Below are positions 2,129-18,727 of a stretch of 40,792 nucleotides of DNA, one piece after another. The position numbers and the translations under genes were made by a program. Within the stretch, counting starts at the first letter, position 1, and each line of letters starts with the position of its first letter. Origin of the DNA: Thiobacillus sp. (lineage in GTDB: Bacteria > Pseudomonadota > Gammaproteobacteria > Burkholderiales > Thiobacillaceae). Where the stretch lies: assembly GCA_019911765.1 (NCBI GenBank), contig JAIOJU010000028.1, positions 1-40,792 on the forward strand, read 5' to 3'. Below the pieces are notes generated by a model that made no database searches, was not told where the DNA came from, and saw only the letters and a list, made by a program, of their open reading frames with translations.

Positions 2129-2137
2129 ACAAGCCTT

Positions 2138-3136
2138 ATGCTTAATGATTCATCCATTCTCATCACTGGTGGCACCGGCTCTTTCGGCCATACTTTTGTC
2201 CCCATGACTTTGGCCAAATACAATCCGCGCCGTCTGGTTGTCTTCTCGCGTGACGAGATGAAACAGTGGGAAATGGCAAAATTGTATGGCGATGATGACA
2301 GGGTGCGGTTTTTTATTGGCGACGTGCGCGACAAGGACAGACTGGTCCGTGCACTGGATGGCATTGACTATGTCATCCATGCGGCTGCGACCAAGATAGT
2401 CCCTACAGCTGAATACAACCCCTTCGAATGTGTCAAGACCAATATTATTGGCGCGATGAATCTGATTGACGCCTGCATCGACCGCCGGGTCAAACGGGTT
2501 GTCGCGCTTTCCACCGACAAAGCGAGCAATCCAGCCAACCTTTACGGCGCGACCAAGCTGGCCTCAGATAAACTGTTTGTCGCGGGGAACTCATATTCAG
2601 GCTCCCACGAAACGCGGTTCGCTGTTGTGCGCTATGGCAACGTGATGGGTTCGCGCGGCTCGGTTATCCCCTTCTTTATGGGGCTTGCCGACAAAGGAAG
2701 CTTGCCGATTACGGATGAGCGCATGACACGATTCATGATCAGCCTTGAGCAAGGCGTCGAACTCGTCTGGCATGCCTTTGAAGACATGGTGGGCGGTGAA
2801 ATCTACGTCAAGAAAATTCCGTCGATGAAAGTGGTCGATCTCGCTCGGGCCGTTGCGCCCGATGCCACCCATGAAATCGTAGGTATCCGCCCTGGCGAGA
2901 AACTGCATGAGCAAATGATCGGCACCGAGGATGCCCTGCATACCTACGAATACGATGATCACTTCAAGATACTGCCAGCGATCCATGGCTGGAGCAACGA
3001 CCCGAGCCGCATCAACGGTGGGGTGAAGGTTGCTCCCGACTTTATCTACAGCTCGAACATCAACCCCGAATGGATGACGATTGAACAGTTGCGCGCCTGG
3101 ATAGACAGCAACTGCGAGAAGATTGGTCGCATCTGA
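2138..3136 (+). CDS. pseB: UDP-N-acetylglucosamine 4,6-dehydratase (inverting), PseB/FlaA1 type
   Basis: The protein has 332 residues, the usual PseB length. It is a soluble short-chain dehydrogenase with the nucleotide-binding loop GGTGSFG at residues 11-17 and the active-site block STDKASNPANLYGATK at 125-140. Within that block D127, K128 and Y136 match the catalytic residues known for H. pylori FlaA1. PseB catalyses the first step of pseudaminic acid synthesis: 4,6-dehydration with C5 epimerisation of UDP-GlcNAc to UDP-2-acetamido-2,6-dideoxy-L-arabino-hexos-4-ulose. The pseC start follows one base after its stop. Non-inverting homologues such as WbpM or PglF are membrane-anchored and about twice as long, so the short soluble form supports PseB. 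Confidence 0.94.
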   Translation: MLNDSSILITGGTGSFGHTFVPMTLAKYNPRRLVVFSRDEMKQWEMAKLYGDDDRVRFFIGDVRDKDRLVRALDGIDYVIHAAATKIVPTAEYNPFECVKTNIIGAMNLIDACIDRRVKRVVALSTDKASNPANLYGATKLASDKLFVAGNSYSGSHETRFAVVRYGNVMGSRGSVIPFFMGLADKGSLPITDERMTRFMISLEQGVELVWHAFEDMVGGEIYVKKIPSMKVVDLARAVAPDATHEIVGIRPGEKLHEQMIGTEDALHTYEYDDHFKILPAIHGWSNDPSRINGGVKVAPDFIYSSNINPEWMTIEQLRAWIDSNCEKIGRI

Positions 3137-3137
3137 C

Positions 3138-4298
3138 ATGATTCCCTACGGTCGTCAGGACATTATTCAGGCTGATATTGATGCCATTGTTGATGTGCTG
3201 CGCTCGGACTTTCTGACGCAGGGGCCTCAAGTGCCCCTTTTCGAGCAAAAGCTGGCCGATTACTGTGGCGCAAAACATGCAGTTGCGGTTAATAGCGCCA
3301 CCTCGGCTTTGCATCTTGCATGCCTCGCGCTGGGGCTTGGTCCGGACGACTGGCTGTGGACCAGCCCCATTACTTTTGTCGCTTCGGCAAATTGCGGACT
3401 GTATTGCGGCGCCCGGGTTGACTTTGTCGACATCAATCCCCGTAGTTACAACCTTTGCCCACGAGCGCTTGAGCAGAAGCTGATCGTGGCCGAGCGCGAA
3501 GGTCGCCTGCCTAAAATCGTCGTGCCGGTGCACTTGTGCGGCGAGCCGTGCGATATGCGGGCAATTTACGCGTTGGCGCAGCGCTTTGGCTTCAAGATTA
3601 TCGAAGATGCTTCGCATGCGGTTGGCGGGAAATACAGGGGCGAGCCCATTGGCAATTGCCGTTATAGCGACGTTACTGTTTTCAGTTTCCATCCCGTGAA
3701 GATCATCACCACAGCCGAAGGTGGCACCGCGATGACAAACGACGATGCACTGGCCGAACGCATGGCACTGCTGCGCAGTCATGGCATCACCCGTGACCGG
3801 GCGCGCATGACCCATGAACCAGACGGCCCCTGGTATTACGAGCAGGTCGACCTGGGCTTTAATTACCGCATGACCGAGTTACAGGCTGCGCTCGGTATCA
3901 GTCAGATGGATCGCCTGGACAATTACGTCGACCGCCGTCATGAACTCGCACGTCGTTATGACGCGTTACTGGCAGGTCTGCCCGTGACGCCCCCCTGGCG
4001 GCATGTGGACAACTACTCGGCGTTGCACCTGTATGTGATCCGTCTGCAACTTCCTGGTGGCGCTCGTACGCACCGCGATGTTTTCGAGTCCCTGCGCGAA
4101 CAGGGGATCGGAGTCAATCTTCACTACATTCCCGTTCATACCCAGCCGTATTACCAGGCGATGGGTTTCAGGGCTGGTGATTTTCCGGAAGCTGAGCGGT
4201 ACTATGCCGAGGCCATCAGCCTGCCCATGTATCCCGGCCTTAGCGACGTGCAATTGCAATCAGTTGCGAAGGCGCTTGGGTCTGCCGTTTTGACATGA
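3138..4298 (+). CDS. pseC: UDP-4-amino-4,6-dideoxy-N-acetyl-beta-L-altrosamine transaminase
   Basis: The protein has 386 residues and is a DegT/DnrJ/EryC1/StrS-family PLP aminotransferase. K188 in FHPVKIITTAEGG is the expected Schiff-base lysine, and the N terminus MIPYGRQDI is typical of PseC. It aminates C4 of the PseB product using glutamate. The ATG at 3138 was chosen over an in-frame TTG at 3123 because it lies one base after the pseB stop and matches the family N terminus. The last 4 bases overlap the aldo/keto reductase start (ATGA). Adjacency to pseB makes the function strong by context as well as by sequence. Confidence 0.93.
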   Translation: MIPYGRQDIIQADIDAIVDVLRSDFLTQGPQVPLFEQKLADYCGAKHAVAVNSATSALHLACLALGLGPDDWLWTSPITFVASANCGLYCGARVDFVDINPRSYNLCPRALEQKLIVAEREGRLPKIVVPVHLCGEPCDMRAIYALAQRFGFKIIEDASHAVGGKYRGEPIGNCRYSDVTVFSFHPVKIITTAEGGTAMTNDDALAERMALLRSHGITRDRARMTHEPDGPWYYEQVDLGFNYRMTELQAALGISQMDRLDNYVDRRHELARRYDALLAGLPVTPPWRHVDNYSALHLYVIRLQLPGGARTHRDVFESLREQGIGVNLHYIPVHTQPYYQAMGFRAGDFPEAERYYAEAISLPMYPGLSDVQLQSVAKALGSAVLT

Positions 4299-5191
4299 GC
4301 CAATATCTAGAATCTGCGCGTACGCATCGCTTGGCCCTGGGTACGGTCCAATTCGGCCTGCCTTACGGCATCGCCAATACGGCTGGCCAAGTATCTCTGG
4401 CCGAAGCCGAACGCATGGTCAGCCTTGCTGCCGACAACAGCATCGACACGATCGATACCGCTATTGGCTATGGGGAGAGCGAACAGGTGCTCGGCCGGAT
4501 TGGTATGCAGGGATTCAAGGTCGTAAGCAAGATTCCGCCCGTCCCGCCGGGCGTGACGAACGTCAGGGGATGGGTGCGGGACGAGGTTGCCCGCTCACTT
4601 GACACCCTGCGCATCGATAGGCTCCATGGCCTGTTGCTGCATCGTTCGGCCGACCTGCTCGGACCATATGGCGATGTGCTGGCTGAGGCCCTGTGCGAAC
4701 TCAAGGCCGAGGGGGCGGTGGTTAAGACGGGGGTTTCCATTTACGCACCGGACGACCTGGAAACCTTGTCGCGGAAGCTCGAGCTTGATTTGATCCAGGC
4801 GCCGTTCAATCTGGCTGACAGACGGCTCCATCGTAGTGGTTGGCTGCAGCGACTCAGGTCGCAGGGGACGGAAATTCATGTGCGCTCCGTTTTCCTGCAA
4901 GGTCTGCTTTTGATGCCACGCGAGGCGATGCCGCCAAAGTTTGCTCGCTGGGCACCATTGTTCGATCGCTGGCATGACTGGCAGCGTTGCCATGAGGCGT
5001 CTGCCGTAGCGGCCTGCCTGGCCTTCCCTCTATCCTTTCCCGCGATCGACCGTGTCGTTGTTGGCGCCAATGACTCGGCACAGCTGCAGGAAATCTTGCG
5101 CGCTACTGCTCAGAGAGTGGAGACAGCACTTCCAGACCTCGCCTGCGACGACGAGGACCTGATCAATCCGGCGCGCTGGCCGGCCTTTTGA
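4295..5191 (+). CDS. Aldo/keto reductase of the nonulosonate cluster
   Basis: The protein has 298 residues and the AKR TIM-barrel features. The catalytic tetrad is visible as D54 and Y59 (in DTAIGYGESE), K79 (VVSKIPP) and H116 (LLLHRS). AKRs reduce carbonyls with NAD(P)H. The enzyme is not part of the minimal six-step Pse pathway, yet its start overlaps the pseC stop by 4 bases and it belongs to the same transcript. It may act on a keto group of a sugar intermediate or on a small acyl precursor of an unusual N-substituent; this is inference. A 59-base gap follows before the aminotransferase. Confidence 0.85.
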   Translation: MSQYLESARTHRLALGTVQFGLPYGIANTAGQVSLAEAERMVSLAADNSIDTIDTAIGYGESEQVLGRIGMQGFKVVSKIPPVPPGVTNVRGWVRDEVARSLDTLRIDRLHGLLLHRSADLLGPYGDVLAEALCELKAEGAVVKTGVSIYAPDDLETLSRKLELDLIQAPFNLADRRLHRSGWLQRLRSQGTEIHVRSVFLQGLLLMPREAMPPKFARWAPLFDRWHDWQRCHEASAVAACLAFPLSFPAIDRVVVGANDSAQLQEILRATAQRVETALPDLACDDEDLINPARWPAF

Positions 5192-5250
5192 AATGACGGA
5201 AATCCGCGCAAGCGATACATTGCAACCACATTACCAATAGAGAGTGCTTT

Positions 5251-6555
5251 ATGGACACAGGTCAAAAGCTCTGGCAACGCGCCAAGCAAATCATCCCCGG
5301 CGGCAACATGCTGCTATCCAAGCGGGCGGAAATGTTCCTGCCCGACCAGTGGCCGGCATATTTCAGCAAGGCCAAGGGCTGCAAGGTATGGGATCTCGAT
5401 GGCCGTGAATACATCGACATGTGCATCATGGGTATCGGCACGAACACACTCGGTTACGGCCATGATGAGGTCGACGCCGCGGTGATGGAGACCGTGAAAG
5501 CGGGCAATATGTCTACTTTCAACTGTCCGGAAGAGGTTTATCTCGCGGAGAAGCTGCTGGAGCTCCACCCTTGGGCAGACATGGCGCGCTTCGCGCGTTC
5601 CGGCGGCGAGGCCAATGCCATCGCCATCCGCATCGCGCGCGCAGCGGCCGGCAAGGATAAGGTTGCCATTTGCGGCTATCACGGCTGGCATGACTGGTAC
5701 CTGGCCGCCAATCTCGGTGACGACAACCATCTGGCTGGCCATCTGCTGCCTGGACTTGACCCTAAGGGCGTACCGAAAAACTTGCGCGGCACGGTTTTCC
5801 CTTTCAACTACAATAATTTTGCCGAGCTTGAAGCGCTCGTGAATACCCATGACATCGGTGTCATCAAGATGGAGGTGATGCGCAATCAGGGCCCGCAGGA
5901 CGGCTTCTTGCAGAAGGTGCGTGACTTGTCCACGCAGCGCGGCATCGTGCTGATCTTCGACGAATGCACATCGGGCTTCCGCCAGACCATGGGCGGCATC
6001 CACAAGATGTACGGTGTTGAACCGGACATGGCCATGTTTGGCAAGGCGCTTGGCAACGGTTATGCGATTACGGCTACCATCGGCCGCCGTGAAATCATGG
6101 AAAGCGCCCAGTCGACCTTCATCAGCAGCACGTTCTGGACCGAGCGCATCGGACCAACGGCTGCGCTGAAAACGCTGGAAATCATGGAGCGTGAGAAATC
6201 CTGGGAGCGCATCACCCAGACCGGCACCGGCATCACCGAGCGCTGGAAGACGCTGGCCGCGAAGCATGGCCTCAAGATCAACACCGCTGGCCTGCCGGCC
6301 ATCACCAGCTTTGGTTTCGACGGCCCCAATGCCCTCGCCTACAAAACGCTGATCACTCAGGAAATGCTGGCCAAGGGTTATCTGGCCACCAATCTGGTGT
6401 TCTCGAGCATTGCCCACACACCGGATATCGTGGATGGTTATTTCCATGCGCTTGATCCGGTCTTTGCCCTGATCAAGGAATGCGAAGAAGGGCGAGATGT
6501 CATGTCTTTGCTCAAGGGCCCTGTCTGCCATGCCGGCTTCAAGCGCCTGAACTGA
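5251..6555 (+). CDS. Class III aminotransferase resembling glutamate-1-semialdehyde 2,1-aminomutase
   Basis: The protein has 434 residues and is a fold-type I PLP enzyme of the HemL-like group. K265 in MFGKALGNGYAI is the PLP lysine, FDECTSGFR carries the cofactor-contacting Asp, and LGYGHDEVDAAV is the usual N-terminal region. True HemL makes 5-aminolevulinate for tetrapyrroles. Here the gene lies between pseC and pseG, so a role in making or attaching an amino-containing sugar substituent is more likely. The neighbouring aldo/keto reductase could act with it in a two-step conversion (inference). ATG 5251 is preceded by a weak AGAGAG at 5239-5244. No tetrapyrrole gene is nearby. Confidence 0.82.
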   Translation: MDTGQKLWQRAKQIIPGGNMLLSKRAEMFLPDQWPAYFSKAKGCKVWDLDGREYIDMCIMGIGTNTLGYGHDEVDAAVMETVKAGNMSTFNCPEEVYLAEKLLELHPWADMARFARSGGEANAIAIRIARAAAGKDKVAICGYHGWHDWYLAANLGDDNHLAGHLLPGLDPKGVPKNLRGTVFPFNYNNFAELEALVNTHDIGVIKMEVMRNQGPQDGFLQKVRDLSTQRGIVLIFDECTSGFRQTMGGIHKMYGVEPDMAMFGKALGNGYAITATIGRREIMESAQSTFISSTFWTERIGPTAALKTLEIMEREKSWERITQTGTGITERWKTLAAKHGLKINTAGLPAITSFGFDGPNALAYKTLITQEMLAKGYLATNLVFSSIAHTPDIVDGYFHALDPVFALIKECEEGRDVMSLLKGPVCHAGFKRLN

Positions 6556-6574: not shown

Positions 6575-7651
6575 ATGTTGCCCGACCTGAGCGCAGTGCG
6601 CATATTTTTCGTTACTGCCGCCAGCAACGCGGTTGGTTTCGGCCATCTCGGCCGCTGCCTGGCGCTTGCGGCCGTTGCCAGCCGTTGCCATGCGGATGTG
6701 GGCTTTCTGGTGTTTGGCAGCAAGGCGGCCGAGGCGCGCATCGAGGCCGCCGGCTACGGCAGCATTCTGCTCGATGAGTCCAGTCTCGATGTGAATGCCG
6801 GCGACTGGCCTGTGCCCCATGACCTGCAGGCCGATGTCCTGGTCGTTGACCTCTTGTTCCCGGCCTTCGCGGCAGCCTGTCCTGACCCATCCGCGCTTTT
6901 CGAGCGTCTGCACGGGCTGGGTCGCCGTTTGGTTGCACTCGATGTGCTGGGTGATTTTTCGATCACCAGCAGGCTGTGTGATATTGCCGCCGATCTGGTC
7001 GTCCTGCCCTATGTGGCACCGCCGGCGCCCCGGAGCCGCCACCGCTGGCGCTTGCTGGAAGGAACCCAATACGCCCTGCTGCCGCCTGAATATGAGGATC
7101 TGCCTCCGCGCCAACTGCGCCAGACCGCCAATCGGGTGTTGGTGAGTTGTGGCGGCAGCGATCCAGAAGGGTACACTTCCGGGGTTTTGCTGGGCCTCGA
7201 AGGGGTGGCGCGTGAGCTTGAGGTTATAGTGGTGATCGGTCCTTTGTTCAGCCCTGCCTTGCGCAGTGAAGTGGCAGCTTTGGCAGCGGCGTCGCACCAT
7301 GCGGTGCGGCTGGCGGATGCGCCGCGCAGCCTGCTTGAGGAAATGCTGTGGTGCGATCTGGCCATCAGCGCGAGTGGTTTGACCAAGTATGAATTGGCGG
7401 CAAGTGCCACACCGGCATTGCTGTTCTCCATCGACGCGTTTCACGATGGGGTGAATCGGCCCTTTGCCGCCACGGGGACGGCCATCGACATGGGCGTGGG
7501 GATTGCGGCTGAAACGGTGGCGAAGGAAACCGAACGCCTGCTGGATGATGTAACGCTGCGTCAGCATCTGGCAACGGCCGGCAGAATGCTGGTGGATGGC
7601 CAGGGCAGTCGGCGTTTGTTTACGGAAATAAAGAAGGAGTTATCTTGCTGA
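6575..7651 (+). CDS. pseG: UDP-sugar hydrolase, PseG/SpsG family
   Basis: The protein has 358 residues and a GT-B-like two-domain fold. H24 in VGFGHLGRCLALA matches the catalytic histidine of C. jejuni PseG (H17). CGGSDP at 192-197 and the SASGLTKYELAASATPALLF segment resemble the nucleotide-binding half of the family. PseG removes UDP from 2,4-diacetamido-2,4,6-trideoxy-L-altropyranose, giving the substrate for the synthase encoded next door. The protein is longer than the roughly 275-residue Campylobacter enzyme. Its last bases overlap the pseI start, which suggests coupled translation. No good Shine-Dalgarno precedes ATG 6575, and a GTG at 6596 (VRIFFVTAA) is a possible alternative start. 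Confidence 0.82.
   Translation: MLPDLSAVRIFFVTAASNAVGFGHLGRCLALAAVASRCHADVGFLVFGSKAAEARIEAAGYGSILLDESSLDVNAGDWPVPHDLQADVLVVDLLFPAFAAACPDPSALFERLHGLGRRLVALDVLGDFSITSRLCDIAADLVVLPYVAPPAPRSRHRWRLLEGTQYALLPPEYEDLPPRQLRQTANRVLVSCGGSDPEGYTSGVLLGLEGVARELEVIVVIGPLFSPALRSEVAALAAASHHAVRLADAPRSLLEEMLWCDLAISASGLTKYELAASATPALLFSIDAFHDGVNRPFAATGTAIDMGVGIAAETVAKETERLLDDVTLRQHLATAGRMLVDGQGSRRLFTEIKKELSC
7634..7639 (+). promoter_or_regulatory. Strong ribosome binding site AAGGAG before a TTG start
   Basis: AAGGAG lies inside the end of pseG, 5 bases before TTG 7645. No ATG or GTG is available at a suitable distance, so this site supports TTG as the start of the synthase gene (CTG 7648 is a weaker option). 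Confidence 0.7.
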
Positions 7652-8664
7652 AGAACGAATTGCTGATCGGTGGAACCCCGGTTGGCGAAAATGCCAAACC
7701 CTATGTCATCGCCGAGATTGGATCGAATTTTGACAAGAGCCTCGACAAGGCGCGCAAGCTGATCGATGTGGCAGCCGAGTCCGGCGCCAATGCGGTCAAA
7801 TTTCAGTTGTTCCGTGCGGACGTTCTCTACCCCAATCGTGACGGCCTTTACGACATTTTCAAGTCGATCGAGCTCGATGCCGACTGGGTGCCGCTGCTGG
7901 ACGAATACACGCGCAAGGCCGGCTTGCACTTCATGGCCTCTGCCTTCGATCTGCAATCAGTATCGGTACTCGAAGCGGTTAAGATTCCGGCGCACAAGGT
8001 CGCCTCATCCGAGACGGCTAATTTGCAGTTCCTCCACCATGTGGCATCCACCGGCAAGCCCGTCATCATCTCGACCGGCATGTGCGATATGGTCGATGTC
8101 GAAGAGGCCGTGAACACCTGCATCGGCGTCGGCAATAAAGACATCGTGCTGCTGCAATGTGGCTCCATGTATCCGCTGCCGAACGAACTGGTCAATCTAC
8201 GCGTGATTCAATCGCTGGCCGAGCGCTTCAAGTGTCCGGTCGGCTTCTCCGATCACACCTTGGGCCAGGTGGCAGCAATAGCTGCGGTCGGTCTGGGCGC
8301 TACGGTGTTCGAGAAACACTTCACACTCGATCGCAAGGCTGAAGGCCCCGATCACTTCTACGCGCTTGAACCTGGCGAGCTCAAGGCCTATGTCTCCGCT
8401 ATCCATGAGGCGCATGAGGCACTCGGTTCGGCCAACAAGGAAATGCTGCCCAAGGAGCGCGAGCTCGGTCGCCGCGACGGCATTTACCTGGCACGTGCCA
8501 TGGCCAAGGGCGAGACCATCACCCAGGCCGATGTCTTGATCAGGCGCCCGGCCGTCGGACTGCGCGCACGTTACGCCGCGACTGTTGTCGGCGCCGTGCT
8601 GACGCGTGCTGTTGACAAGGATCAGCCGCTGACCTGGGATGTGATTTCTTTTGGGAGCAAATAA
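7645..8664 (+). CDS. pseI: N-acetylneuraminate/pseudaminate synthase family protein
   Basis: The protein has 339 residues. The NeuB TIM barrel starts with YVIAEIGSNFD and contains ANAVKFQLFRAD, FSDHTLG and EKHFTLDRKAEGPDH. A C-terminal SAF (antifreeze-like) domain covers about the last 60 residues and contains IRRPAVGLRARY. The family condenses a 6-carbon sugar with phosphoenolpyruvate to form a 9-carbon nonulosonate. With PseB, PseC and a PseG-like hydrolase upstream, pseudaminic acid or a close isomer is the likely product. NeuB, LegI and PseI cannot be separated with certainty by eye. The TTG start with a good ribosome binding site lies within the pseG stop region. Confidence 0.87.
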   Translation: MLKNELLIGGTPVGENAKPYVIAEIGSNFDKSLDKARKLIDVAAESGANAVKFQLFRADVLYPNRDGLYDIFKSIELDADWVPLLDEYTRKAGLHFMASAFDLQSVSVLEAVKIPAHKVASSETANLQFLHHVASTGKPVIISTGMCDMVDVEEAVNTCIGVGNKDIVLLQCGSMYPLPNELVNLRVIQSLAERFKCPVGFSDHTLGQVAAIAAVGLGATVFEKHFTLDRKAEGPDHFYALEPGELKAYVSAIHEAHEALGSANKEMLPKERELGRRDGIYLARAMAKGETITQADVLIRRPAVGLRARYAATVVGAVLTRAVDKDQPLTWDVISFGSK

Positions 8665-9372: not shown

Positions 9373-10059
9373 ATGACCAAGCCGCTCATCATCTTCGGTT
9401 CTGCGGAAATCGCCGAGCTCGCGAAGTTCTATTTCGAGAATGACAGCGACTATCGTATTGCCGCCTTTACCGTGGACGATGCCTTTGCCGTGGACGAGCA
9501 TGTACATGGCCTGCCGCTGGTGCCTTTCAGCGAGGTCGCCAAGCGCTTTCCGCCGGCACAGTTCGAGATGCATGTGGCGCTCTCCTATGCGCGCCTCAAT
9601 CGCTTGCGTCAGGAGAAATACGAGCAGGCCAAGGCGGCCGGTTACCGCCTCGCCTCCTATGTTTGCAGCAAGTCGGTGACTTGGTCCGATCTCTCGATCG
9701 GGGACAATTGCTTCATCCTCGAGAACCAGACCATCCAGCCCGGCGTGCGCATCGGTAACAACGTGATGATCTGGTCAGGCAACCACCTCGGCCACGGCAC
9801 GCAGATCGAGGACCATGCTTACATCGCATCGCATGCCGTGATATCGGGCCATTGCAATATCGGTGAGCGCAGCTTTGTCGGCGTGAACGCCACCCTCAGG
9901 GATTTCTGCGCCGTCGGCAAGGATTGCTTTGTTGGCATGGGTGCCGATGTGGCTCGAGATATGCTGGACGGCTCCGTTGCTTTGGCCACTTCTACCGAGA
10001 TCTATGATGAGACTGATCGCAGAGCAAAGGTACTCAAGAAATCGTATTTCAAACTCTAA
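9373..10059 (+). CDS. Left-handed beta-helix sugar acyltransferase, PglD/NeuD type
   Basis: The protein has 228 residues. A short N-terminal Rossmann-like domain (PLIIFGSAEIAEL) is followed by hexapeptide repeats from about residue 110 (IGDNCFI, IGNNVMI, IEDHAYI, IGERSFV). The catalytic-type histidine lies in GNHLGHGTQI. Relatives N-acetylate UDP-4-amino sugars (PglD) or O-acetylate sialic acid (NeuD). It could supply the PseH-type N4 acetylation or an O-acyl decoration here. The two GNAT genes downstream compete for the N-acetylation role, so the exact reaction is open. It starts 10 bases after the methyltransferase stop. Confidence 0.86.
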   Translation: MTKPLIIFGSAEIAELAKFYFENDSDYRIAAFTVDDAFAVDEHVHGLPLVPFSEVAKRFPPAQFEMHVALSYARLNRLRQEKYEQAKAAGYRLASYVCSKSVTWSDLSIGDNCFILENQTIQPGVRIGNNVMIWSGNHLGHGTQIEDHAYIASHAVISGHCNIGERSFVGVNATLRDFCAVGKDCFVGMGADVARDMLDGSVALATSTEIYDETDRRAKVLKKSYFKL

Positions 10060-10074
10060 AAATAGCTAAACAAG

Positions 10075-10974
10075 ATGCGTTGGATAAAAACCGGTCTTTT
10101 CATTGAGCCTCAGCGTGATAAATGGTGGTCACGTACCCATGCGATGATTCCAACGCCGGAGGATCTAGGCGATGGGGTGTTCCGGATTTACTATTCGGGC
10201 CGCAGCGACAAAAACCAGTCCCACATCACCTGGGCAGACGTTGATCTCAATTCGCCTTTTCGCGTCATAGCGCATAGCAACTGTCCAATCCTGCTGCCCG
10301 GAGATCTCGGTTGCTTCGATGACAACGGTGTTACACCGTCCTGTCTACTCGACCTGGGTAATGGTGAAAAGGCGCTCTACTATATCGGCTGGAACCCTGG
10401 TTCGACGGTGCGCATGCACCTCTTCGGCGGGCTTGCGTTAAGCCATGACGGTGGCCAGACCTTTGCACGCTGGTCGCGTGCCCCAATCATAGAACGTTGC
10501 CCAACCGATCCCTTCCTCAACACTGCACCATTCGTAGTCAAGGCGGATGGCGAATTTCGGATGTACTACGTTTCTGGCTGCGGTTGGGTGCACAAGGATC
10601 TGCCGCGCTACAACATCAAGCTGGCACGTTCCGATGACGGTAAGGTCTGGCGACGAGATGGACATGTTTGCATAGACTTCAAGAACGCATCGGAAAATGC
10701 CTTGGCGCGGCCCTTTGTCCTTTTCGAAGAGGGTGTCTGGAAAATGTGGTTTGCATATAAAGGCGAGACCTATCGTCTGGGCTATGCGGAATCCCTCGAT
10801 GGGGTGACTTGGGTACGGCGTGACGAGTTAGTTGGAATTGACGTGGGCCCATCCGGTTTCGATAGCGAGATGATTGAATACGCTGCTGTCGTCAAATACG
10901 ATGGCCGGCATTTCATGTTCTACAACGGCAACAATTACGGCTTCGAGGGCATAGGGCTGGCGGTGGCGGAATGA
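10075..10974 (+). CDS. Asp-box beta-propeller protein related to GH43/GH32/GH130-type folds
   Basis: The protein has 299 residues, no signal peptide and no membrane segment, so it should be cytoplasmic. Its repeats are typical of a beta-propeller: repeated FRIYYSGRSDK, KALYYIGWN, FRMYYVSG, WKMWFAYKG and HFMFYNGNNYG strands. Asp-box-like turns occur at about residues 123 (SHDGGQTF), 186 (SDDGKVW) and 240 (SLDGVTW). The five-fold repetition fits the GH43/GH32/GH130-like superfamily, in which members cleave or phosphorolyse glycosides. The gene lies in the middle of a nonulosonate operon and overlaps WbqC by 4 bases. It may be a glycosidase, a phosphorylase or a non-catalytic sugar binder; I cannot identify catalytic residues with confidence. 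No clear Shine-Dalgarno precedes ATG 10075. Confidence 0.78.
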   Translation: MRWIKTGLFIEPQRDKWWSRTHAMIPTPEDLGDGVFRIYYSGRSDKNQSHITWADVDLNSPFRVIAHSNCPILLPGDLGCFDDNGVTPSCLLDLGNGEKALYYIGWNPGSTVRMHLFGGLALSHDGGQTFARWSRAPIIERCPTDPFLNTAPFVVKADGEFRMYYVSGCGWVHKDLPRYNIKLARSDDGKVWRRDGHVCIDFKNASENALARPFVLFEEGVWKMWFAYKGETYRLGYAESLDGVTWVRRDELVGIDVGPSGFDSEMIEYAAVVKYDGRHFMFYNGNNYGFEGIGLAVAE

Positions 10975-11672
10975 CGCGGGTTGCAATCATGCAGCCGACC
11001 TATCTGCCCTGGAGCGGCTACTTTGGACTGATGCAGGCAGTTGATGTTTTTATCTTCCTGGATTCGGTTCAGTTTGCGCGGCGTTCCTGGCAGCAACGCA
11101 ACCAGATCAAAACAGCTCGGGGTGCGCAATGGCTGACGGTGCCGGTGACCAGCAAGGGCAAGCGCGATCAACTGATCAGCGAGGTCGAGGTGGACATGAG
11201 CAGCAATTTCGCCGCCACCCACCGCAAGACGATAGAGGCCAATTACAGCAAGGCGGTCTGCTTTCGCGAGATAGCTCCTGCCTTGTTGGCCAAGCTCGAC
11301 AATCCGACGCGCTTGGCCGATCTGAATATCGGCATCATCATGCATTGTTGCGAATTGCTGGGGATAGAGACGAAAGTGCTGCGTTCGAGCACAATGCAGG
11401 GCGAGGGCGCCAAGGCCGACCTGCTGGCTTCTCTCTGCCGCGAGGTTGGCGCGACCGAGTACATTTCCCCGCCGGGCTCCAGTGAATACCTGGACGCTTC
11501 CGACGCCTTCAGTGCCCTGGGCGTGCCGGTGCGCTATTTCAACTATCATCATCCGGAGTATCCTCAGTTGTTTGGTGAATTCCTGCCTTATATGTCTGTC
11601 ATCGATATGCTGTTCAACTGCGGCGCACACAGTGCCAGTCTCATTCGGAACGCAAGCAAGGTGAGCGTGTGA
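10971..11672 (+). CDS. WbqC-family protein
   Basis: The protein has 233 residues and the characteristic N terminus MQPTYLPWSGYFGLMQAVDVFIFLDSVQF, then RRSWQQRNQIKT and WLTVPV. The ending FGEFLPYMSVIDMLFNCG is also typical of WbqC proteins. The family is found in O-antigen and glycan clusters. Its biochemical role is not settled; an acyl- or aminoacyl-transfer role is often suggested by context. The gene overlaps the propeller gene before it (ATGA) and pseF after it (GTGA), so all three are translationally coupled. It may add a substituent to the nonulosonate (inference). Confidence 0.87.
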   Translation: MTRVAIMQPTYLPWSGYFGLMQAVDVFIFLDSVQFARRSWQQRNQIKTARGAQWLTVPVTSKGKRDQLISEVEVDMSSNFAATHRKTIEANYSKAVCFREIAPALLAKLDNPTRLADLNIGIIMHCCELLGIETKVLRSSTMQGEGAKADLLASLCREVGATEYISPPGSSEYLDASDAFSALGVPVRYFNYHHPEYPQLFGEFLPYMSVIDMLFNCGAHSASLIRNASKVSV

Positions 11673-12367
11673 AGCGCCTTGCCATCATTCCCGCACGCGG
11701 CGGTTCCAAGCGTATTCCCAACAAGAACGTGCGCGATTTCTGCGGCAAGCCCATGATTGCTCATGTCCTTGGGGCCGCGGCCGCCAGTGGCCTGTTCGAT
11801 ACGGTGCATGTGTCCACCGAAAGTCCGGATATCAGTGCGGTTGCGGCTGCCTGCGGCTTCCCCCCGGACTTCCCGCGCCCGGACAATCTGGCCGACGACA
11901 TGACGCCGATCATGCCGGTGCTGCGCTATGTGACCGAGGAATATGCGCGTCGCGGCCGTGATTTCGACGAGATCTGGCTGCTGATGGCCTGTGCGCCCCT
12001 GATCGACGCGCAGGATCTGACGAAGGCGGCCGTGCTGTTTACCGCCTCCGGCGGTGGGCAGCCGCTGCTGGCCGTGTCCGAATATCAAGCGCCGATCGAA
12101 TGGGCCTTCAGCCGCCAGCCCGATGGCCGGCTGGTGCCAGTGCAGGCCGGCATGTTCGCGGTGCGCTCCCAGGATCTTGAAAAGAAATATTTCGATGCGG
12201 GCAGCTTCGCTGCTTTTCCCGCGGCGCGGGTACTGAATGCTGAAGGCGCGGGTTCGGACGATGGCTTTATCGGCTATGTCCTGCCCAAGGGGACGGCCAT
12301 TGACATCGACGAAGAGCAGGACTGGAAGCAGGCCGAGGCGATTTTCCGCGCGCGTGCCGCCCAGTAA
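11669..12367 (+). CDS. pseF: CMP-nonulosonate cytidylyltransferase, PseF/NeuA family
   Basis: The protein has 232 residues. The N-terminal IIPARGGSKRIPNKNVRDFCGKPMI motif is that of CMP-sialate/CMP-Pse synthetases and binds CTP. The C-terminal AIDIDEEQDWKQAE motif carries the metal-binding acidic residues. The enzyme couples CTP to the C2 anomeric hydroxyl of the nonulosonate, the activation needed before transfer. GTG 11669 overlaps the WbqC stop. The length and neighbours fit PseF better than NeuA. A second, unrelated-looking cytidylyltransferase follows 23 bases downstream. Confidence 0.88.
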   Translation: MKRLAIIPARGGSKRIPNKNVRDFCGKPMIAHVLGAAAASGLFDTVHVSTESPDISAVAAACGFPPDFPRPDNLADDMTPIMPVLRYVTEEYARRGRDFDEIWLLMACAPLIDAQDLTKAAVLFTASGGGQPLLAVSEYQAPIEWAFSRQPDGRLVPVQAGMFAVRSQDLEKKYFDAGSFAAFPAARVLNAEGAGSDDGFIGYVLPKGTAIDIDEEQDWKQAEAIFRARAAQ

Positions 12368-12390
12368 CCGACTGGCCAACAGGATAATTC

Positions 12391-13131
12391 ATGAAGATCG
12401 TAGCAACCATAGAGGCTCGCATGACCTCTTCGCGACTGCCCGGCAAAGTGATGCTGCCGGCACTGGGTCGCCCCATGCTGGCGCACCTGACCAGCCGCCT
12501 CAAGGCGGTACCATCGATTGACGAGATCGTGCTGGCCACCACAATCAATGCAACCGACGATGTGTTGGCCGACTTTGCCGAGAAGGATGGCATCAAGGTA
12601 TTTCGCGGCAGCGAGGAAGATGTCATGTCGCGCGTCATCGGTGCTGCGGATTCGGCACAAGCCGATGTGGTGGTGGAGATCACCGGCGACTGCCCGATCA
12701 TAGACCCCGATCTCGTCGAGCAGACGATTCGCGTGTTCAAGCGCAACAATGCAGTGTATGCGGCGAACTCCTTTATCAGCAGCTATCCGGATGGCATGGA
12801 TACGCAGGTCATCACGCTCGAGGCGCTGAAGAAGTCCTTTGCCATGACCGACGATCCGCTCGACCGTGAACATGTGTCGCGCCATATCGTCAATAACCCG
12901 CAACTGTTCCCGCATGTCTACCTGATCGCGCCGCCCTCGCTGCACTGGCCGGGCCTGGGCCTGACGCTGGACGAGCCGGCCGACTACGAATTGATTCGAA
13001 CCCTGATCGAGAATCTCGGCAAGGACAATCCCCTGTTCGGCTGCGGTGACGCCATCCGTTTCCTGCGCGCCAATCCGCAGGTGCTGAAGGTCAATGATTT
13101 GGTTCAGCGCAAGGACGTGCGGCCGACGTGA
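12391..13131 (+). CDS. spsF: SpsF-family cytidylyltransferase
   Basis: The protein has 246 residues. MKIVATIEARMTSSRLPGKVM is the signature of the COG1861/SpsF nucleotidyltransferases, followed by DPLDREHVSRHI and LTLDEPADYELI, which are also typical. In B. subtilis, SpsF acts with SpsC, SpsD, SpsE and SpsG in a legionaminic acid pathway. ATG 12391 has AGGA at 12381-12384. The stop overlaps the oxidoreductase start (GTGA). Having this gene beside pseF means the operon encodes two candidate activating enzymes: either two products are made, or one enzyme works on a different sugar. Confidence 0.87.
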   Translation: MKIVATIEARMTSSRLPGKVMLPALGRPMLAHLTSRLKAVPSIDEIVLATTINATDDVLADFAEKDGIKVFRGSEEDVMSRVIGAADSAQADVVVEITGDCPIIDPDLVEQTIRVFKRNNAVYAANSFISSYPDGMDTQVITLEALKKSFAMTDDPLDREHVSRHIVNNPQLFPHVYLIAPPSLHWPGLGLTLDEPADYELIRTLIENLGKDNPLFGCGDAIRFLRANPQVLKVNDLVQRKDVRPT

Positions 13132-14093
13132 AGTACAAGGTCTTGCTTGTCGGTCTGGGGCAGATGGGCGTGGGTTACGACGTCGGTACCGCAGACCATG
13201 CTGCCATTTTGACGCATGCACGGGCCTTCTCGTTGCATCCCGATTTCGAGCTGGCCGGCGGCGTCGATCCAGACGAAGCCAACCGTGCCCGCTTCGCCAA
13301 CTACTACGGCGGCTGGACCGGTTCCAGCCTCGCCGATGGCATGCAGGCCGTGCAGCCGGACGTGGTCATCATTGCCTCCCCGACTGAACATCACGCCGAG
13401 GGCATACATATCGCCCTGCAGCATGGCAGGCCCAAACTGATTCTCTGCGAAAAGCCGCTGGCGCACGGACTGGCCGATGCGCAAGCTATGGTCGCGGCGT
13501 GCCGGGAGGCGGGCTGCCAGCTGTATGTGAACTATCTGCGCCGCGTCGAGCCTGGCGTGCTCGAGGTCAAGCGGCGGCTCAGCAACGGTACCATCGCCAC
13601 ACCGGTCAAGGGCGTGCTCTGGTACACGAAGGGTCTGCTGCACAACGGATCGCACTTTTCGAATCTGCTCGAATTCTGGCTTGGTCCGATTGTGGATTTC
13701 AGAATCATCAATTCCGGCCGCCTCTGGGGCGGAAGCGACCCCGAACCGGATGTTCAGGTAAAATTCGCAGCCGGAGAAGTGACCTTCCTGGCCGCACAGG
13801 AGGAGCACTTCTCGCATTATGAAATCCAGCTCGTGGCGCCGAATGGCTGTTTGCGCTACGAGCAGGGGGGCGCAAAAATCACCTGGCAGCCTACCGTTCC
13901 GGATCGCGATGTGGCCATGTATACAGTGTTATCGGCTGCTGGCGAGACCATCGCAACGGAGGGGGGCAGGCTGCCGTGGCATGTCGCTGACAATGTGAGC
14001 GCCAGCTTGCGTGGCGGGCCTTCAACCCTGTGCTCCGGCGAGGATGCGTTGCGTACCCTTGAATCGCTCCTGAAAATGAAAGCAGCACTATGA
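13128..14093 (+). CDS. Gfo/Idh/MocA-family sugar oxidoreductase
   Basis: The protein has 321 residues. The N-terminal NAD(P)-binding segment is KVLLVGLGQMGVGYDVG, followed by VIIASPTEHHAEG and the family marker CEKPLAHG with its substrate-site lysine. Members oxidise or reduce ring hydroxyls of sugars or nucleotide sugars. It starts with GTG overlapping spsF and ends overlapping the DegT aminotransferase. An oxidoreductase followed by an aminotransferase is the usual pair for turning a hydroxyl into an amino group. This suggests a second amino-sugar branch next to pseBC (inference). Confidence 0.88.
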   Translation: MKYKVLLVGLGQMGVGYDVGTADHAAILTHARAFSLHPDFELAGGVDPDEANRARFANYYGGWTGSSLADGMQAVQPDVVIIASPTEHHAEGIHIALQHGRPKLILCEKPLAHGLADAQAMVAACREAGCQLYVNYLRRVEPGVLEVKRRLSNGTIATPVKGVLWYTKGLLHNGSHFSNLLEFWLGPIVDFRIINSGRLWGGSDPEPDVQVKFAAGEVTFLAAQEEHFSHYEIQLVAPNGCLRYEQGGAKITWQPTVPDRDVAMYTVLSAAGETIATEGGRLPWHVADNVSASLRGGPSTLCSGEDALRTLESLLKMKAAL

Positions 14094-15382
14094 ACAAACA
14101 AAGCGCTAGCGATACCCTGGCACTTCTGGGTGGCCCCAGGATGATCGACAAAACCTTTGCCCGTTACAACCCGCTCGGCCGCGAAGAGGTCGAGGCAGCT
14201 AAAAAAGTGGTTGAAAGTGGTGTTCTTTCTCAGTTTCTCGGCTGCTGGGACCCGGATTTCTTCGGCGGTCCAAAAGTGCAGGAATTCGAACGCCAGTGTG
14301 AAAGCTATTTCGGCGTCAAGCATGCCGTCACCTTCAACTCATGGACCTCGGGCCTGATTGCCGCTGTCGGCGCCATCGGCATAGAGCCGGGCGACGAAGT
14401 CATCGTAAGCCCATGGACCATGGCGGCCAGCGCCACGGCCATCCTGCACTGGAACGCTATCCCGGTCTTCGCCGACATTGAGCGCGAAACCTTCTGTCTC
14501 GATCCGGACTCGATTGAGCGCAATATCAGCCCACAGACACGCGCCATCATGTCCGTGGACATCGCCGGTCATTCGGCTGACATGGACACGCTGCGCAAAA
14601 TCGCCGACAAGCATAAGCTGAAGATCATTTCCGACACTGCTCAGGCTCCAGCCGCGAAATACAGGGATAGATACGCCGGCACCCTGGCCGACATCGGCGG
14701 CTACAGCCTCAATTACCACAAGCATATTCACACTGGTGAAGGCGGCATCGCAGTAACCGATGACGCCGACCTCGCCGACCGCCTTCGGCTGATTCGTAAT
14801 CATGCCGAAGTCGTCGTCGAAGACAAGGGTGTGACCAACTTGAGCAACATGATCGGCCACAATTTCCGCCTTGGCGAGATCGAGTGCGCCATGGGCATCG
14901 AGCAACTCAAAAAGCTGGATGCCATGGTCGCTTCGCGTCAGCGCATCGCGCGCAAACTGGACAAGGGTCTGGCCGGCCTTGTGGGATTGAAAACGCCGAC
15001 AGTGTCATCCGGTTGTACGCATGTTTATTACGTATATGCGATGACATTGGATATCAAGGCGCTCGGCATCAGTCGTCAACGCCTGCACCAGGCCTTGACT
15101 GCGGAGGGTGTGCCCGCGCTCGCCGCCAGTTACCAGAACCTGCACATGTTGCCGATGTACCAAAAGAAGATAGCCTACGGCAGCAAGGGTTTCCCGTGGA
15201 CCTCGGATATCTGCAAGCGCGACGTGGACTACAGCAAGGGTATTTGCCCGGTTGCGGAAGACCTGCACGAGTCGAGTTTTCTCGGCTTCGGCATCTGTTC
15301 ACATGAGTTCAGTGATGATGAAGTCGATCTCATCATCGAGGCGTTTCACAAGGTATGGCGCAATCTGGAGGCTTTACGATGA
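14090..15382 (+). CDS. DegT/DnrJ/EryC1/StrS-family aminotransferase
   Basis: The protein has 430 residues and the type I PLP fold. K211 in GGYSLNYHKHIHTGEGG is the PLP lysine, and SDTAQAPAAKY holds the cofactor Asp and neighbouring residues. It is longer than PseC (386) and clearly different from it. It probably aminates the keto sugar made by the adjoining Gfo/Idh enzyme; SpsC of B. subtilis belongs to the same broad family. ATGA overlaps join it to the genes on both sides. The substrate is not determinable from sequence alone. Confidence 0.88.
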   Translation: MNKQSASDTLALLGGPRMIDKTFARYNPLGREEVEAAKKVVESGVLSQFLGCWDPDFFGGPKVQEFERQCESYFGVKHAVTFNSWTSGLIAAVGAIGIEPGDEVIVSPWTMAASATAILHWNAIPVFADIERETFCLDPDSIERNISPQTRAIMSVDIAGHSADMDTLRKIADKHKLKIISDTAQAPAAKYRDRYAGTLADIGGYSLNYHKHIHTGEGGIAVTDDADLADRLRLIRNHAEVVVEDKGVTNLSNMIGHNFRLGEIECAMGIEQLKKLDAMVASRQRIARKLDKGLAGLVGLKTPTVSSGCTHVYYVYAMTLDIKALGISRQRLHQALTAEGVPALAASYQNLHMLPMYQKKIAYGSKGFPWTSDICKRDVDYSKGICPVAEDLHESSFLGFGICSHEFSDDEVDLIIEAFHKVWRNLEALR

Positions 15383-15927
15383 TCTACGAGCTAGCCGACG
15401 GTTATTACGTGCGCGGCCTGCGAGAAGAGGATCTCGATGGCCCCTATCCATCCTGGTTCGAAGACCAGGAAGTGTGCCACTTCAATTCCCATGGAAAATT
15501 CTTCAAGACGACAGAATGGTTCCGCGAGTTCTACCACAACCTGAATCGCGAGGACCGGGTAGTGTGGGCCATCTGCCACCACGAGGACGGACATATCGGC
15601 AACGTCAGCCTGCAGAGTATTTCCTTCATCAACCGCAATGCCGAATACGCCATCGTCATCGGCAATCCCAGGCACTGGCGCAAGTCAGTCGGTCTCAACG
15701 CCTCGCTGGCGTTGCTACGCCACGGTTTCCAGAAACTCAATCTTGAGCGCGTGTACTGCGGTACAGCCGCTACCAATCTCGGTATGCAGAAATTGGCCGT
15801 GCAGATGGGCATGGTCGAGGAGGGGCGCCGTCGCAAGCACTTGTTTCTCAACGGAGAAATGGTGGACATGATCGAGTATGGCGTCCTGCGCCAGGACTTT
15901 GGGCCAGGGGGAGACGCCACGGCATGA
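15379..15927 (+). CDS. GNAT-family N-acetyltransferase (PseH/SpsD-like candidate)
   Basis: The protein has 182 residues. The GNAT acetyl-CoA region is seen in AEYAIVIGNPRHWRKSVGLNASLALLRHGFQKLNLERVYCGTAATNLGMQKLAVQMGM, shown here in its key parts: the IGN strand, the helix after the pyrophosphate loop and the conserved N-x-x-M-Q-K-L region. PseH acetylates the 4-amino group of the PseC product with acetyl-CoA, and the Pse pathway needs such an enzyme before PseG. The start ATG 15379 overlaps the DegT stop and has TGGAGG at 15366-15371. It could equally serve the DegT product. Confidence 0.82.
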   Translation: MIYELADGYYVRGLREEDLDGPYPSWFEDQEVCHFNSHGKFFKTTEWFREFYHNLNREDRVVWAICHHEDGHIGNVSLQSISFINRNAEYAIVIGNPRHWRKSVGLNASLALLRHGFQKLNLERVYCGTAATNLGMQKLAVQMGMVEEGRRRKHLFLNGEMVDMIEYGVLRQDFGPGGDATA

Positions 15928-16832
15928 TCGGCGTGGTTGCGCATGACGCCGGCGGCGTCGAAATCATCGCCAGCTATATACGCAAGCAGGGTTTGGACTG
16001 CGTTTTCTGCACCGAAGGCGCAGCGACGGCTGTGGTTGGCCGCAAATTGGGTAATGTAAAGACCATGGCGCTGGAGCTGCTGGTGTCGTCCTGCGATTGG
16101 CTGCTGTGCGGCACGAGTTTTCTGTCGGACCTTGAATGGCGTGCCATCGGCTTGGCCCGGGCACAGGGAAAGCACTGCGTCGTCGTGCTCGATCACTGGG
16201 TCAATTACCGCCAGCGCTTCCTGCGCCACGGTGAATGGCATTGGCCTAACGAGGTCTGGGTCGGCGACGAGGTGGCTCTGAGCATTGCTGCTGAAACGCT
16301 ACCTGAGGTGCCGGTACGCATGGTGCCGAATGCCTATTTTGAAGACATCCGCCAGGAGTTTGCTGCGATGGAGCAAGCGCAGCCCCGGCAGGGTTATGGC
16401 ATGCGCATCCTCTATGTCTGCGAGCCGCTGCGTGAGGATGGCATTGCGCTATACGGCGATGAGCGTTACTGGGGATATACCGAGGAGGAGGCGTTGCGTT
16501 ACTTCCTCACCCATGTTGGCAGCCTTGCGCCAGAAATCGAGCGCATTGTTGTGCGACCGCACCCTCAGGAGGAACGCGGCAAATACGATTGGGCGATGCA
16601 GGAGTTCGATCTCCCACTGGTATGTGGCGAGAACAAGACGCTGCTTGAGCAAATCGCATCGAGCGACATCGTGGCGGGATGTGCAACGATGGCCATGGTG
16701 GTGGGCCTGCTGGCTGACAAGCGTGTAATCAGTTGTATCCCGCCAAAAGGCAAGACCATACCCTTGCCGCATCCTGAAATCGAGGACATGAACCAACTGA
16801 TTGCCGCCCTGGGGACCGGGGCAAGAAACTGA
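15924..16832 (+). CDS. Unknown surface-carbohydrate protein with RPHP motif (GT-B-like)
   Basis: The protein has 302 residues and no signal peptide. It begins MIGVVAHDAGGVEIIASYI. A middle region contains VVVLDHWVNYRQRF, and near residues 207-215 it reads IVVRPHPQEE, followed by KTLLEQIASSDIVAGCATMAMVVGLLADKRVIS. The RPHP segment followed by a loop that ends in a Gly/Ala-rich helix resembles capsule and sialic-acid transfer enzymes and other GT-B proteins. I do not recognise a named family. The position between a GNAT and the acetamidino module makes it a candidate nonulosonate-handling enzyme. It starts by ATGA overlap, and a perfect hairpin lies just behind its stop. Confidence 0.6.
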   Translation: MIGVVAHDAGGVEIIASYIRKQGLDCVFCTEGAATAVVGRKLGNVKTMALELLVSSCDWLLCGTSFLSDLEWRAIGLARAQGKHCVVVLDHWVNYRQRFLRHGEWHWPNEVWVGDEVALSIAAETLPEVPVRMVPNAYFEDIRQEFAAMEQAQPRQGYGMRILYVCEPLREDGIALYGDERYWGYTEEEALRYFLTHVGSLAPEIERIVVRPHPQEERGKYDWAMQEFDLPLVCGENKTLLEQIASSDIVAGCATMAMVVGLLADKRVISCIPPKGKTIPLPHPEIEDMNQLIAALGTGARN

Positions 16833-16838
16833 AGACCC

Positions 16839-16859
16839 GACCGCAGTGTCACTGCGGTC
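16839..16859. promoter_or_regulatory. Perfect 10-bp inverted repeat between two operon genes
   Basis: The arms GACCGCAGTG (16839-16848) and CACTGCGGTC (16850-16859) are exact reverse complements around a single T at 16849. As RNA it would form a strong hairpin with a minimal loop. It begins 6 bases after the previous stop and ends 7 bases before GGAG (16867-16870) of the next gene. No T-run follows, so it does not look like a Rho-independent terminator. It could be an mRNA-stability or processing hairpin, or a DNA operator. Confidence 0.7.
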
Positions 16860-16878
16860 ACAGACTGGAGTAAATGCA

Positions 16879-18075: not shown

Positions 18076-18109
18076 ACAGGCGCGGTTCATCCGTCCTCAC
18101 GGTGCTTTC

Positions 18110-18727
18110 ATGATAGGCATTCTGGATATTGGTATGGGCAATCTGCGGTCCGTCTGCAATGCTGTCTACCAGAATGGTTTCGACCCTGTTGTTGTGGACA
18201 ATGCGGCCGCCTTCGATGATCTGACCCACCTGATCATTCCCGGCGTCGGTAATTTTGGCGCCGCAGTGCCCGAAATCGAGAAGCGCCAGTTGCGAGACCC
18301 TATCCTCGATTTCGCCAAGGGAGGCCGTCCCTTGCTGGGAACCTGCCTTGGCATGCAATTGATGATGGGGATCGGCGAAGAAGGGGGCATGCATCACGGC
18401 CTTGGCCTGATCGAGGGCCGCGTTACGCGTCTTGATGTCGGGCCTGGCCTGAGGATTCCGCACGTCGGCTGGAATGAACTCGATGTGAGCCGGCCGCATC
18501 CTGTTTTTTCCGGTATCAAGACCAGGTGCGATTTCTATTTCGTGCACTCCTATGCGGTCCGGTGCGACAACGCATTGGATGTGCTGGCCACCACAGATTA
18601 TGGCGGGTTGGTTACGGCTGCAATCGGTCGTGCCAATGTGGTCGGCGTGCAGTTCCACCCGGAAAAAAGCCAGGTTAACGGCCTGCGCCTGATTGAGAAT
18701 TTTTGTCGTTGGGATGGAAAATGCTGA
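18110..18727 (+). CDS. HisH-like glutamine amidotransferase of the acetamidino module
   Basis: The protein has 205 residues and is a class I glutaminase. The catalytic cysteine is C79 in GTCLGMQL, and H183 and E185 (QFHPEKSQ) complete the triad. It releases ammonia from glutamine. In histidine synthesis it pairs with HisF, but no other his gene is present, and the neighbour upstream is the sugar amidotransferase. It therefore almost certainly feeds ammonia to the acetamidino-forming enzyme (as WbuY/HisH2 does). The stop lies inside the following HisF-like gene (7-base overlap), which suits a stable complex. Confidence 0.9.
   Translation: MIGILDIGMGNLRSVCNAVYQNGFDPVVVDNAAAFDDLTHLIIPGVGNFGAAVPEIEKRQLRDPILDFAKGGRPLLGTCLGMQLMMGIGEEGGMHHGLGLIEGRVTRLDVGPGLRIPHVGWNELDVSRPHPVFSGIKTRCDFYFVHSYAVRCDNALDVLATTDYGGLVTAAIGRANVVGVQFHPEKSQVNGLRLIENFCRWDGKC

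Follow-up and report, generated by a model that had tools for sequence, protein, structure and literature searches.

The window analysed here, a 40,792-nucleotide stretch of a draft Thiobacillus sp. genome (assembly GCA_019911765.1, contig JAIOJU010000028.1, positions 1 to 40,792), carries within a nonulosonate locus two adjacent genes for different cytidylyltransferases, a PseF-like gene and an SpsF-type gene, and the second of these belongs to a block of genes that recurs in other bacteria. Comparison of gene neighbourhoods across genomes shows that SpsF, a Gfo/Idh-type oxidoreductase, a DegT-family aminotransferase, a GNAT acetyltransferase and a protein that we call X16 form what, judged by sequence, is a separate conserved unit. 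We hold with even confidence that the two cytidylyltransferases serve two sugars, the PseF-like enzyme activating a plain pseudaminic acid (Pse)-type nonulosonate, SpsF activating a form of it aminated by Gfo/Idh and DegT, and X16 transferring the aminated sugar. Two activating enzymes would then be present because there would be two sugars to activate, one plain and one aminated.

The cytidylyltransferase pair and the conserved block

The PseF-like gene (11669..12367, GTG start, 232 aa) and the SpsF-type gene (12391..13131, ATG start, 246 aa) both lie on the forward strand, as do the other pathway and block genes described below, and both are apparently intact. The stop codon of the first ends at 12367 and the ATG of the second stands at 12391, leaving 23 bases between them. 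Both proteins passed the 22.6-bit gathering cut-off of Pfam CTP_transf_3 (PF02348), the PseF-like protein at 66.8 bits and the SpsF-like protein at 87.3 bits, so that open reading frames (ORFs), spacing and scores all agree with the original prediction of a PseF/NeuA-type and an SpsF-type gene 23 bases apart. The PseF-like protein, the ordinary partner of the pair, is a CMP-nonulosonate (CMP, cytidine monophosphate) cytidylyltransferase by family; it scored 183 bits against the PseF model TIGR03584, whose equivalog cut-off of 205.7 it did not reach, and matched NeuA (9ftb) over residues 3-228 of 232 (E 3e-30). The window SpsF reached no family cut-off in an NCBIfam scan. Its closest solved relative is 6oew, a cytidylyltransferase from Leptospira (E 1.5e-33, the next at 5e-11), and 6oew was also the top structural match (Z 33.4, root-mean-square deviation (rmsd) 1.5, 235 residues aligned) of its predicted structure, which has a predicted local distance difference test score (pLDDT) of 94.9. 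Across its 246 aa it has CTP_transf_3 and an overlapping NTP_transf_3 domain and nothing else, and the Aldo_ket_red fusion of the EpaA type is absent.

CTP_transf_3 was found above its cut-off three times in the draft genome (2.86 Mb, 93.7% complete): in the PseF-like protein, in the SpsF-like protein and in a full-length match of 204.6 bits on contig C150, a candidate KdsB by its score; a fourth match, on contig C287, fell below the cut-off. The single synthase gene noted earlier proved to be the sole NeuB match of this whole draft genome.

Within the window, the SpsF gene is followed by genes for a Gfo/Idh/MocA-type oxidoreductase (13128..14093; PF01408, 67.4 bits), a DegT-family pyridoxal phosphate (PLP) aminotransferase (14090..15382; PF01041, 302 bits) and a GNAT acetyltransferase (15379..15927, within an ORF from 15355; PF13302, 76.2 bits on 15355-15927), the last placed in the block because it often stands there in the neighbourhoods compared. 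In an alignment of 26 Gfo/Idh sequences, E108-K109-P110 and H176 were invariant. Lys211 of DegT, which we take to be the PLP lysine of the family, was invariant in 25 of 25 sequences, and the best solved relatives of this protein are 8gyh, deposited only as a DegT-family aminotransferase, and perosamine synthases.

The fifth member, X16 (15924..16832), is a glycosyltransferase B (GT-B) fold protein and, from its structure model and its company with the block, a candidate transferase for the activated sugar. It matched no Pfam family in the scan, and TIGR04396 scored 20.7 bits, far under the cut-off of 125. The model is confident (pLDDT 92.1), and its polysialyltransferase-like GT-B fold (5wc6: Z 14.8, rmsd 4.2, 266 aligned) is matched slightly better by 2-epimerases (up to Z 16.0, for NeuC 5zlr, rmsd 3.9, 261 aligned). 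Because 2-epimerases, LpxB, PseG, TarL, KpsC and polysialyltransferase all match, the fold does not name the function of X16, and that it is a transferase is our guess from its gene company. No relatives of X16 were found on plasmids at E 1e-8.

The comparison across genomes began with 31 loci holding SpsF relatives, which were probed by BLAST with the window proteins. It was widened by three loci on plasmids and by the SpsF loci, those of G092 and G002 excepted, of 299 sampled genomes from the phylum to which the window belongs. After a short match (L094), a weak match in L058 and L091, which repeats L065, were left out, 79 of 82 SpsF matches remained and made 80 rows with the window. The sampling favours the branch of the window SpsF, similarity to which brought in most of the block loci. 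SpsF with Gfo and DegT, often together with GNAT and X16, was found by BLAST in alpha-, beta- and deltaproteobacteria, Nitrospirota, Gemmatimonadota, Chlorobium and others. In a tree of the 80 SpsF domains the window SpsF fell within a branch of 34 rows (Shimodaira-Hasegawa-like approximate likelihood ratio test, SH-aLRT, 99), and a Gfo/Idh gene adjoined SpsF in 31 of them, the exceptions being L063, a long branch, and two rows whose contigs are cut or short, L048 and L070. By profile, Gfo was present in 31 of 33 branch loci and 1 of 34 others (L089), DegT in 31 of 33 and 2 of 34 (L062, L063), and X16 in 28 of 33 and 1 of 34 (L063), the 33 branch loci of these counts including L091. A second phylum, that of the genome bearing L064, was checked through 394 genomes; examination of the best 30 loci added a single block locus, L136, in which SpsF-X16-Gfo-DegT is accompanied by NeuB and a PseF-like gene. 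The SpsF-like matches L113 and L122 have one internal stop codon each. Among phage records there was one distant SpsF-like match, in a marine virus (MH319754.1, 85615-86295, 26% identity).

A three-residue signature and the second activating enzyme

Comparison of alignment columns between block and other SpsF rows yielded a signature at positions 8, 96 and 139, defined in this analysis and not published. The window SpsF has E8, E96 and Q139 (EEQ) in place of the ordinary-type Q8, R96 and E139 (QRE). Of the 31 block rows, 25 have EEQ and not one has QRE. QRE occurred in 39 of the 49 other rows, including all 14 labelled as fused (L092 being fused to other domains), and EEQ in two of these 49, L048 and L070, both inside the block branch. 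The switch shifts the charge of the region by two units to the acidic side. In the predicted model the three positions fall in strands 3-8, 93-98 and 139-142, from which we infer that they would line the sugar pocket. Since most block rows lie in one branch, EEQ may be a single event, and a Fisher test overstates the independence of the rows. Among the best 30 loci of the second phylum, EEQ was found in four: L104 (L064's own genome) and L105, with Gfo, and L107 and L110, without Gfo in a short stretch. A longer stretch around L107's gene (L134) has SpsF at the contig end, cut just after the gene. The SpsF rows of the remaining 26 of these 30 loci keep Q at the first position (missing in one partial row), have R or K at the second and E139 at the third, except for two with T.

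The signature bears on whether the two enzymes are redundant, both activating the same nonulosonate with one as a spare. Both belong to CTP_transf_3, Azospirillum pseI is adjoined by an SpsF gene alone, and in Vibrio B9-25K2 the place of NeuA may be taken by an SpsF-type domain (PMC7371886; here as below, statements on cited papers refer to part of their text). EEQ is nevertheless specific to the block branch, while the second SpsFs of the same loci keep QRE in 12 of 13 cases (that of L069 reads ARE, with A at position 8), and the company of Gfo, DegT and X16 is constant. The switch and the company together argue for a distinct substrate, and we judge a spare enzyme to be improbable.

Second enzymes were counted at 33 block loci (L063 included, L091 left out) with a BLAST limit of 60 bits; a NeuA-type motif pattern missed the PseF-like gene of L063, and BLAST scores were used in its stead. 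Two CYTIDYLYLTRANSFERASES per locus were found with a PseF-like gene in 5 of the 33 and with a second SpsF in 13 of the 33, in the stretch examined, and PseF and a second SpsF occurred together in 0 of 33 at that limit. PseF also accompanies the block in the window and in L136. How often such a pair co-occurs in other genomes was a question raised with the original prediction, and the block SpsF together with another cytidylyltransferase does recur at many other loci. This recurrence speaks against a chance neighbourhood, and a pairing of the PseF-like and SpsF-like genes by accident or plain redundancy is unlikely.

In nine loci the second SpsF domain and a class-III aminotransferase form one fused protein (seen by Pfam in L041, L050 and L061), and in L045 and L072 the domain has a separate gene just before that of the aminotransferase. 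A fusion of SpsF to an aldo/keto reductase in L041 and others was ruled out, the fusion partner being the class-III aminotransferase. The window, L036, L037, L039, L040 and L063 have a class-III aminotransferase without an SpsF domain, and in these PseF is present. As PseF goes with the unfused aminotransferase where other loci have the SpsF fusion, PseF seems to take the place of the ordinary SpsF domain, with the block SpsF as the constant extra. Only one NeuB was found per stretch wherever it was present, except in L043, which has two. The Propionivibrio genome of L050 has one NeuB and three CTP_transf_3 matches, two of them in the block locus.

The NeuB counts also bear on whether the block serves a nonulosonate at all. 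It could be merely clustered with nonulosonate genes, its SpsF activating with cytidine triphosphate (CTP) some other compound, such as a Kdo-like acid, a hexose or a polyol phosphate. Such a substrate would suit the R96E change, which loses a basic residue found in 45 of the 49 other SpsF rows, and the KdsB and IspD structures that tie next after 6oew as matches to the window SpsF (Z 19.6, rmsd 2.4, 195 aligned; Z 19.1, rmsd 2.8, 193 aligned). It would also suit L055, L056, L058, L059 and others, in which no NeuB was found in the stretch examined, and the two genomes without NeuB. We nevertheless consider this unlikely, though less so than a spare enzyme. NeuB was present in 29 of the 31 genomes behind the starting loci (three of which, those of L062, L063 and L066, are non-block or unsure), and in 8 of the 33 block loci it directly precedes the block SpsF, ending at most 131 bases before it (L043, L046, L050, L051, L052, L061, L064 and L072). 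In the 299-genome sample, NeuB was found in 31 of 31 SpsF-bearing genomes and in 116 of 299 overall (p ~3e-14, with the window's own genome excluded and relatedness ignored). The two genomes without NeuB are those of L044 and L048. In L044 the block sits on a contig of coverage 2, possibly a stray, in a cyanobacterial metagenome-assembled genome, and the genome of L048 has CTP_transf_3 elsewhere in a 680-aa open frame, the size of an SpsF fusion.

Several observations weigh against two sugars with two activating enzymes. At 15 of the 33 block loci there is no second cytidylyltransferase in the stretch examined, several stretches being short; for one of the 15, L042, CTP_transf_3 lies in a 676-aa frame immediately beyond the stretch. 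L047 has a weak NeuA-like match (41 bits by BLAST, 42 bits by Pfam) near the far end of its stretch, and CTP_transf_3 is matched again elsewhere in some of the genomes. Exactly one NeuB match was found in 12 of the 31 starting-locus genomes, two to four (some weak) in 17 and none in 2, so that, over whole genomes, a ratio of one synthase to two activating enzymes is borne out only partly. L089 pairs a QRE SpsF with weak Gfo-like neighbours, and 6 of the 31 block rows depart from EEQ (L038, whose start is missing, L046, L056, L065, L069 and L071). L110's gene, seen in a longer stretch (L135), is EEQ with neither Gfo nor DegT in 19.5 kb. KdnA (5k8b) is seventh among the solved relatives of DegT, behind 8gyh and the perosamine synthases. 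The R96E change could instead mean a lost carboxylate contact and hence another substrate.

Two of these loci deserve a further remark. In the last 600 bases of L047, about 9.4 kb past the block SpsF, a NeuA-like cytidylyltransferase starts, possibly a third activating enzyme in one locus. In L135, where SpsF lies at about 9393-10259, there is no NeuB in the 19.5 kb either, and the neighbours look by eye to be unrelated to sugar synthesis.

Upstream genes and a proposed amination route

The genes upstream of the pair argue for a single Pse-type backbone as the probable product of the operon. This is favoured because PseB, an inverting UDP-GlcNAc 4,6-dehydratase (2138..3136, ATG at 2138; scanned as 2126-3136), scored 530 bits against TIGR03589 (cut-off 407.75) and the PseC aminotransferase (3138..4298) scored 567 bits against TIGR03588 (cut-off 423.5), both exceeding their equivalog cut-offs. 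Against it, the PseG-like protein (6575..7651; TIGR03590, 93.1 bits, equivalog cut-off 153.55) and the NeuB/PseI-type nonulosonate synthase (7645..8664; PF03102, 265.8 bits), the only one found, remain below theirs, the synthase scoring 295.9 against 399.65 for the NeuB model and 284.3 against 340.25 for the PseI model. Between PseC and the PseG-like protein lie genes for an aldo/keto reductase (4295..5191; PF00248, 88.3 bits) and a class-III aminotransferase (5251..6555; PF00202), which in relatives is often the C-terminal half of an SpsF fusion and here is without the SpsF half.

The original prediction had left a choice between two isomers and one enzyme that has taken on a new sugar. Two isomers, Pse and legionaminic acid (Leg), both produced by a single synthase of loose specificity and activated by separate enzymes, would fit a synthase below both the NeuB and PseI cut-offs. 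The early genes are Pse-type above cut-off, however, the LegB cut-off was reached by none of the window proteins scanned, and such a pair would leave Gfo and DegT unexplained; we regard it as very improbable. Of the two alternatives the new sugar is the one favoured, through the branch tied to Gfo/Idh, DegT and X16 and its altered three-residue signature.

The route that we propose for the new sugar, drawn from the families of the enzymes, would run as follows. PseB, PseC, the PseG-like protein and NeuB would make one pseudaminic-type nonulosonate, which the PseF-like enzyme would activate in its plain form. Gfo/Idh and DegT enzymes make an oxidise-then-aminate pair, and here Gfo/Idh would oxidise a free hydroxyl of the nonulosonate and DegT would exchange the resulting keto group for an amino group, which GNAT would possibly acylate. 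The block SpsF would couple CMP to the aminated sugar, and X16 would transfer it. Once the synthase has acted, C4 and C8 are the only positions of a Pse-type sugar that bear a free hydroxyl, so that the amino group would sit at C4 or, with greater likelihood, at C8 of the nonulosonate.

A more specific form of this proposal, to which we lend tentative and less than even confidence, is that the block is a widely distributed, unrecognised pathway for an 8-amino nonulosonic acid of the 5,7,8-triamino kind of Flexibacter maritimus. It would have its own activating enzyme, with a pocket turned acidic to hold an ammonium group, and its own transferase, and would have been added to ordinary Pse pathways in several phyla, one synthase feeding two activated sugars. 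Flexibacter maritimus is a known source of an 8-amino nonulosonate (PMC3210612), and a search by paper listings for the O-antigen genes of Tenacibaculum (Flexibacter) maritimum gave none naming the block.

Oxidation could also be followed by reduction, as with EpaA/EpaB, giving an epimer with the second cytidylyltransferase to activate it. EpaA and EpaB do yield 8-epi-Pse by way of a cytidylyltransferase-reductase (PMC12053666), and the window has an aldo/keto reductase. That reductase lies outside the block, however, and the conserved partner within the block is an aminotransferase with Lys211 in all 25 sequences, which makes an epimer a poor candidate, if a better one than two isomers. Should the amino sugar be correct, an E/E/Q SpsF beside Gfo and DegT would mark bacteria with an aminated, partly cationic nonulosonate, and the block would be a candidate route for a sugar known by structure whose genes were not found described in the literature searched. 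It would also explain the two activating enzymes per locus and would caution against calling every SpsF-like gene a CMP-Leg or CMP-Pse synthetase.

Other parts of the window were noted alongside. The aldo/keto reductase and class-III aminotransferase (4295-6555) make a second redox-plus-aminotransferase pair; in its relatives an SpsF domain often lies between the two or is fused to the aminotransferase, and it is missing in the window. A 299-aa protein encoded at 10075-10974 has no Pfam family and adjoins WbqC and PseF in L036, L037, L039 and L040. On the 3′ side of X16, a set of WbuX-type amidotransferase, HisH and HisF/WbuZ-like genes (16801-19479) suggests that one of the sugars made by the locus carries an acetamidino group. 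The genes at 21814-26255, for a glucose-1-phosphate cytidylyltransferase and a CDP-glucose 4,6-dehydratase (CDP, cytidine diphosphate; both above cut-off), an epimerase, a C-methyltransferase and a reductase, look like a pathway for a CDP-linked C-methyl deoxysugar, and a further CTP-using enzyme thus lies within the window. Two neighbouring ORFs at 36507-38314, with similar starts by eye, are perhaps a duplicated methyltransferase.

Comparison with known systems

The enzymes are of known families and their logic has precedents. For the gene block, in which SpsF joins Gfo/Idh and DegT among nonulosonate genes, we recognised no description within the openly licensed PubMed Central (PMC) literature, judged by listings and excerpts. 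The first gene of the pair resembles the PseF/NeuA CMP-nonulosonate synthetases, differing in its score below the PseF equivalog cut-off. The second is by name a cytidylyltransferase of the same kind as SpsF of Bacillus subtilis, where spsF is required for Leg transfer to the spore and not for Leg synthesis (PMC7439481). SpsF is the sole activating enzyme of that six-enzyme pathway, whereas in the window it is the second and stands with Gfo and DegT. The bifunctional protein of Vibrio B9-25K2 likewise places an SpsF-like domain in a Pse cluster. It is fused to an aldo-keto reductase and proposed as a stand-in for a missing NeuA, in contrast to the window, which has PseF (PMC7371886).

For the proposed amination, the nearest precedent is the Kdo8N pathway of Shewanella, in which KdnB oxidises a hydroxyl of a ketulosonate (PMC5125639) and a DegT-type transamination to 8-amino-Kdo follows (KdnA, from the Protein Data Bank name of 5k8b). 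The sugar on which KdnB, an iron-type alcohol dehydrogenase, acts has eight carbons, whereas the window sets a Gfo/Idh enzyme (PF01408) beside its aminotransferase in a nine-carbon pathway. In prophages of Acinetobacter baumannii, EpaA (CTP_transf_3 with an aldo-keto reductase) and EpaB convert Pse to 8-epi-Pse in a psaA-F strain (PMC12053666), which makes C8 a known site of later modification. There, as proposed here, a cell with Pse synthesis and activation of its own gains a further CTP_transf_3 domain, and the result is a Pse modified at C8. EpaA is fused to its reductase, has a short-chain dehydrogenase as partner and gives the 8-epimer, with no aminotransferase named in the part of that paper considered here, whereas the window SpsF stands with Gfo/Idh and DegT.

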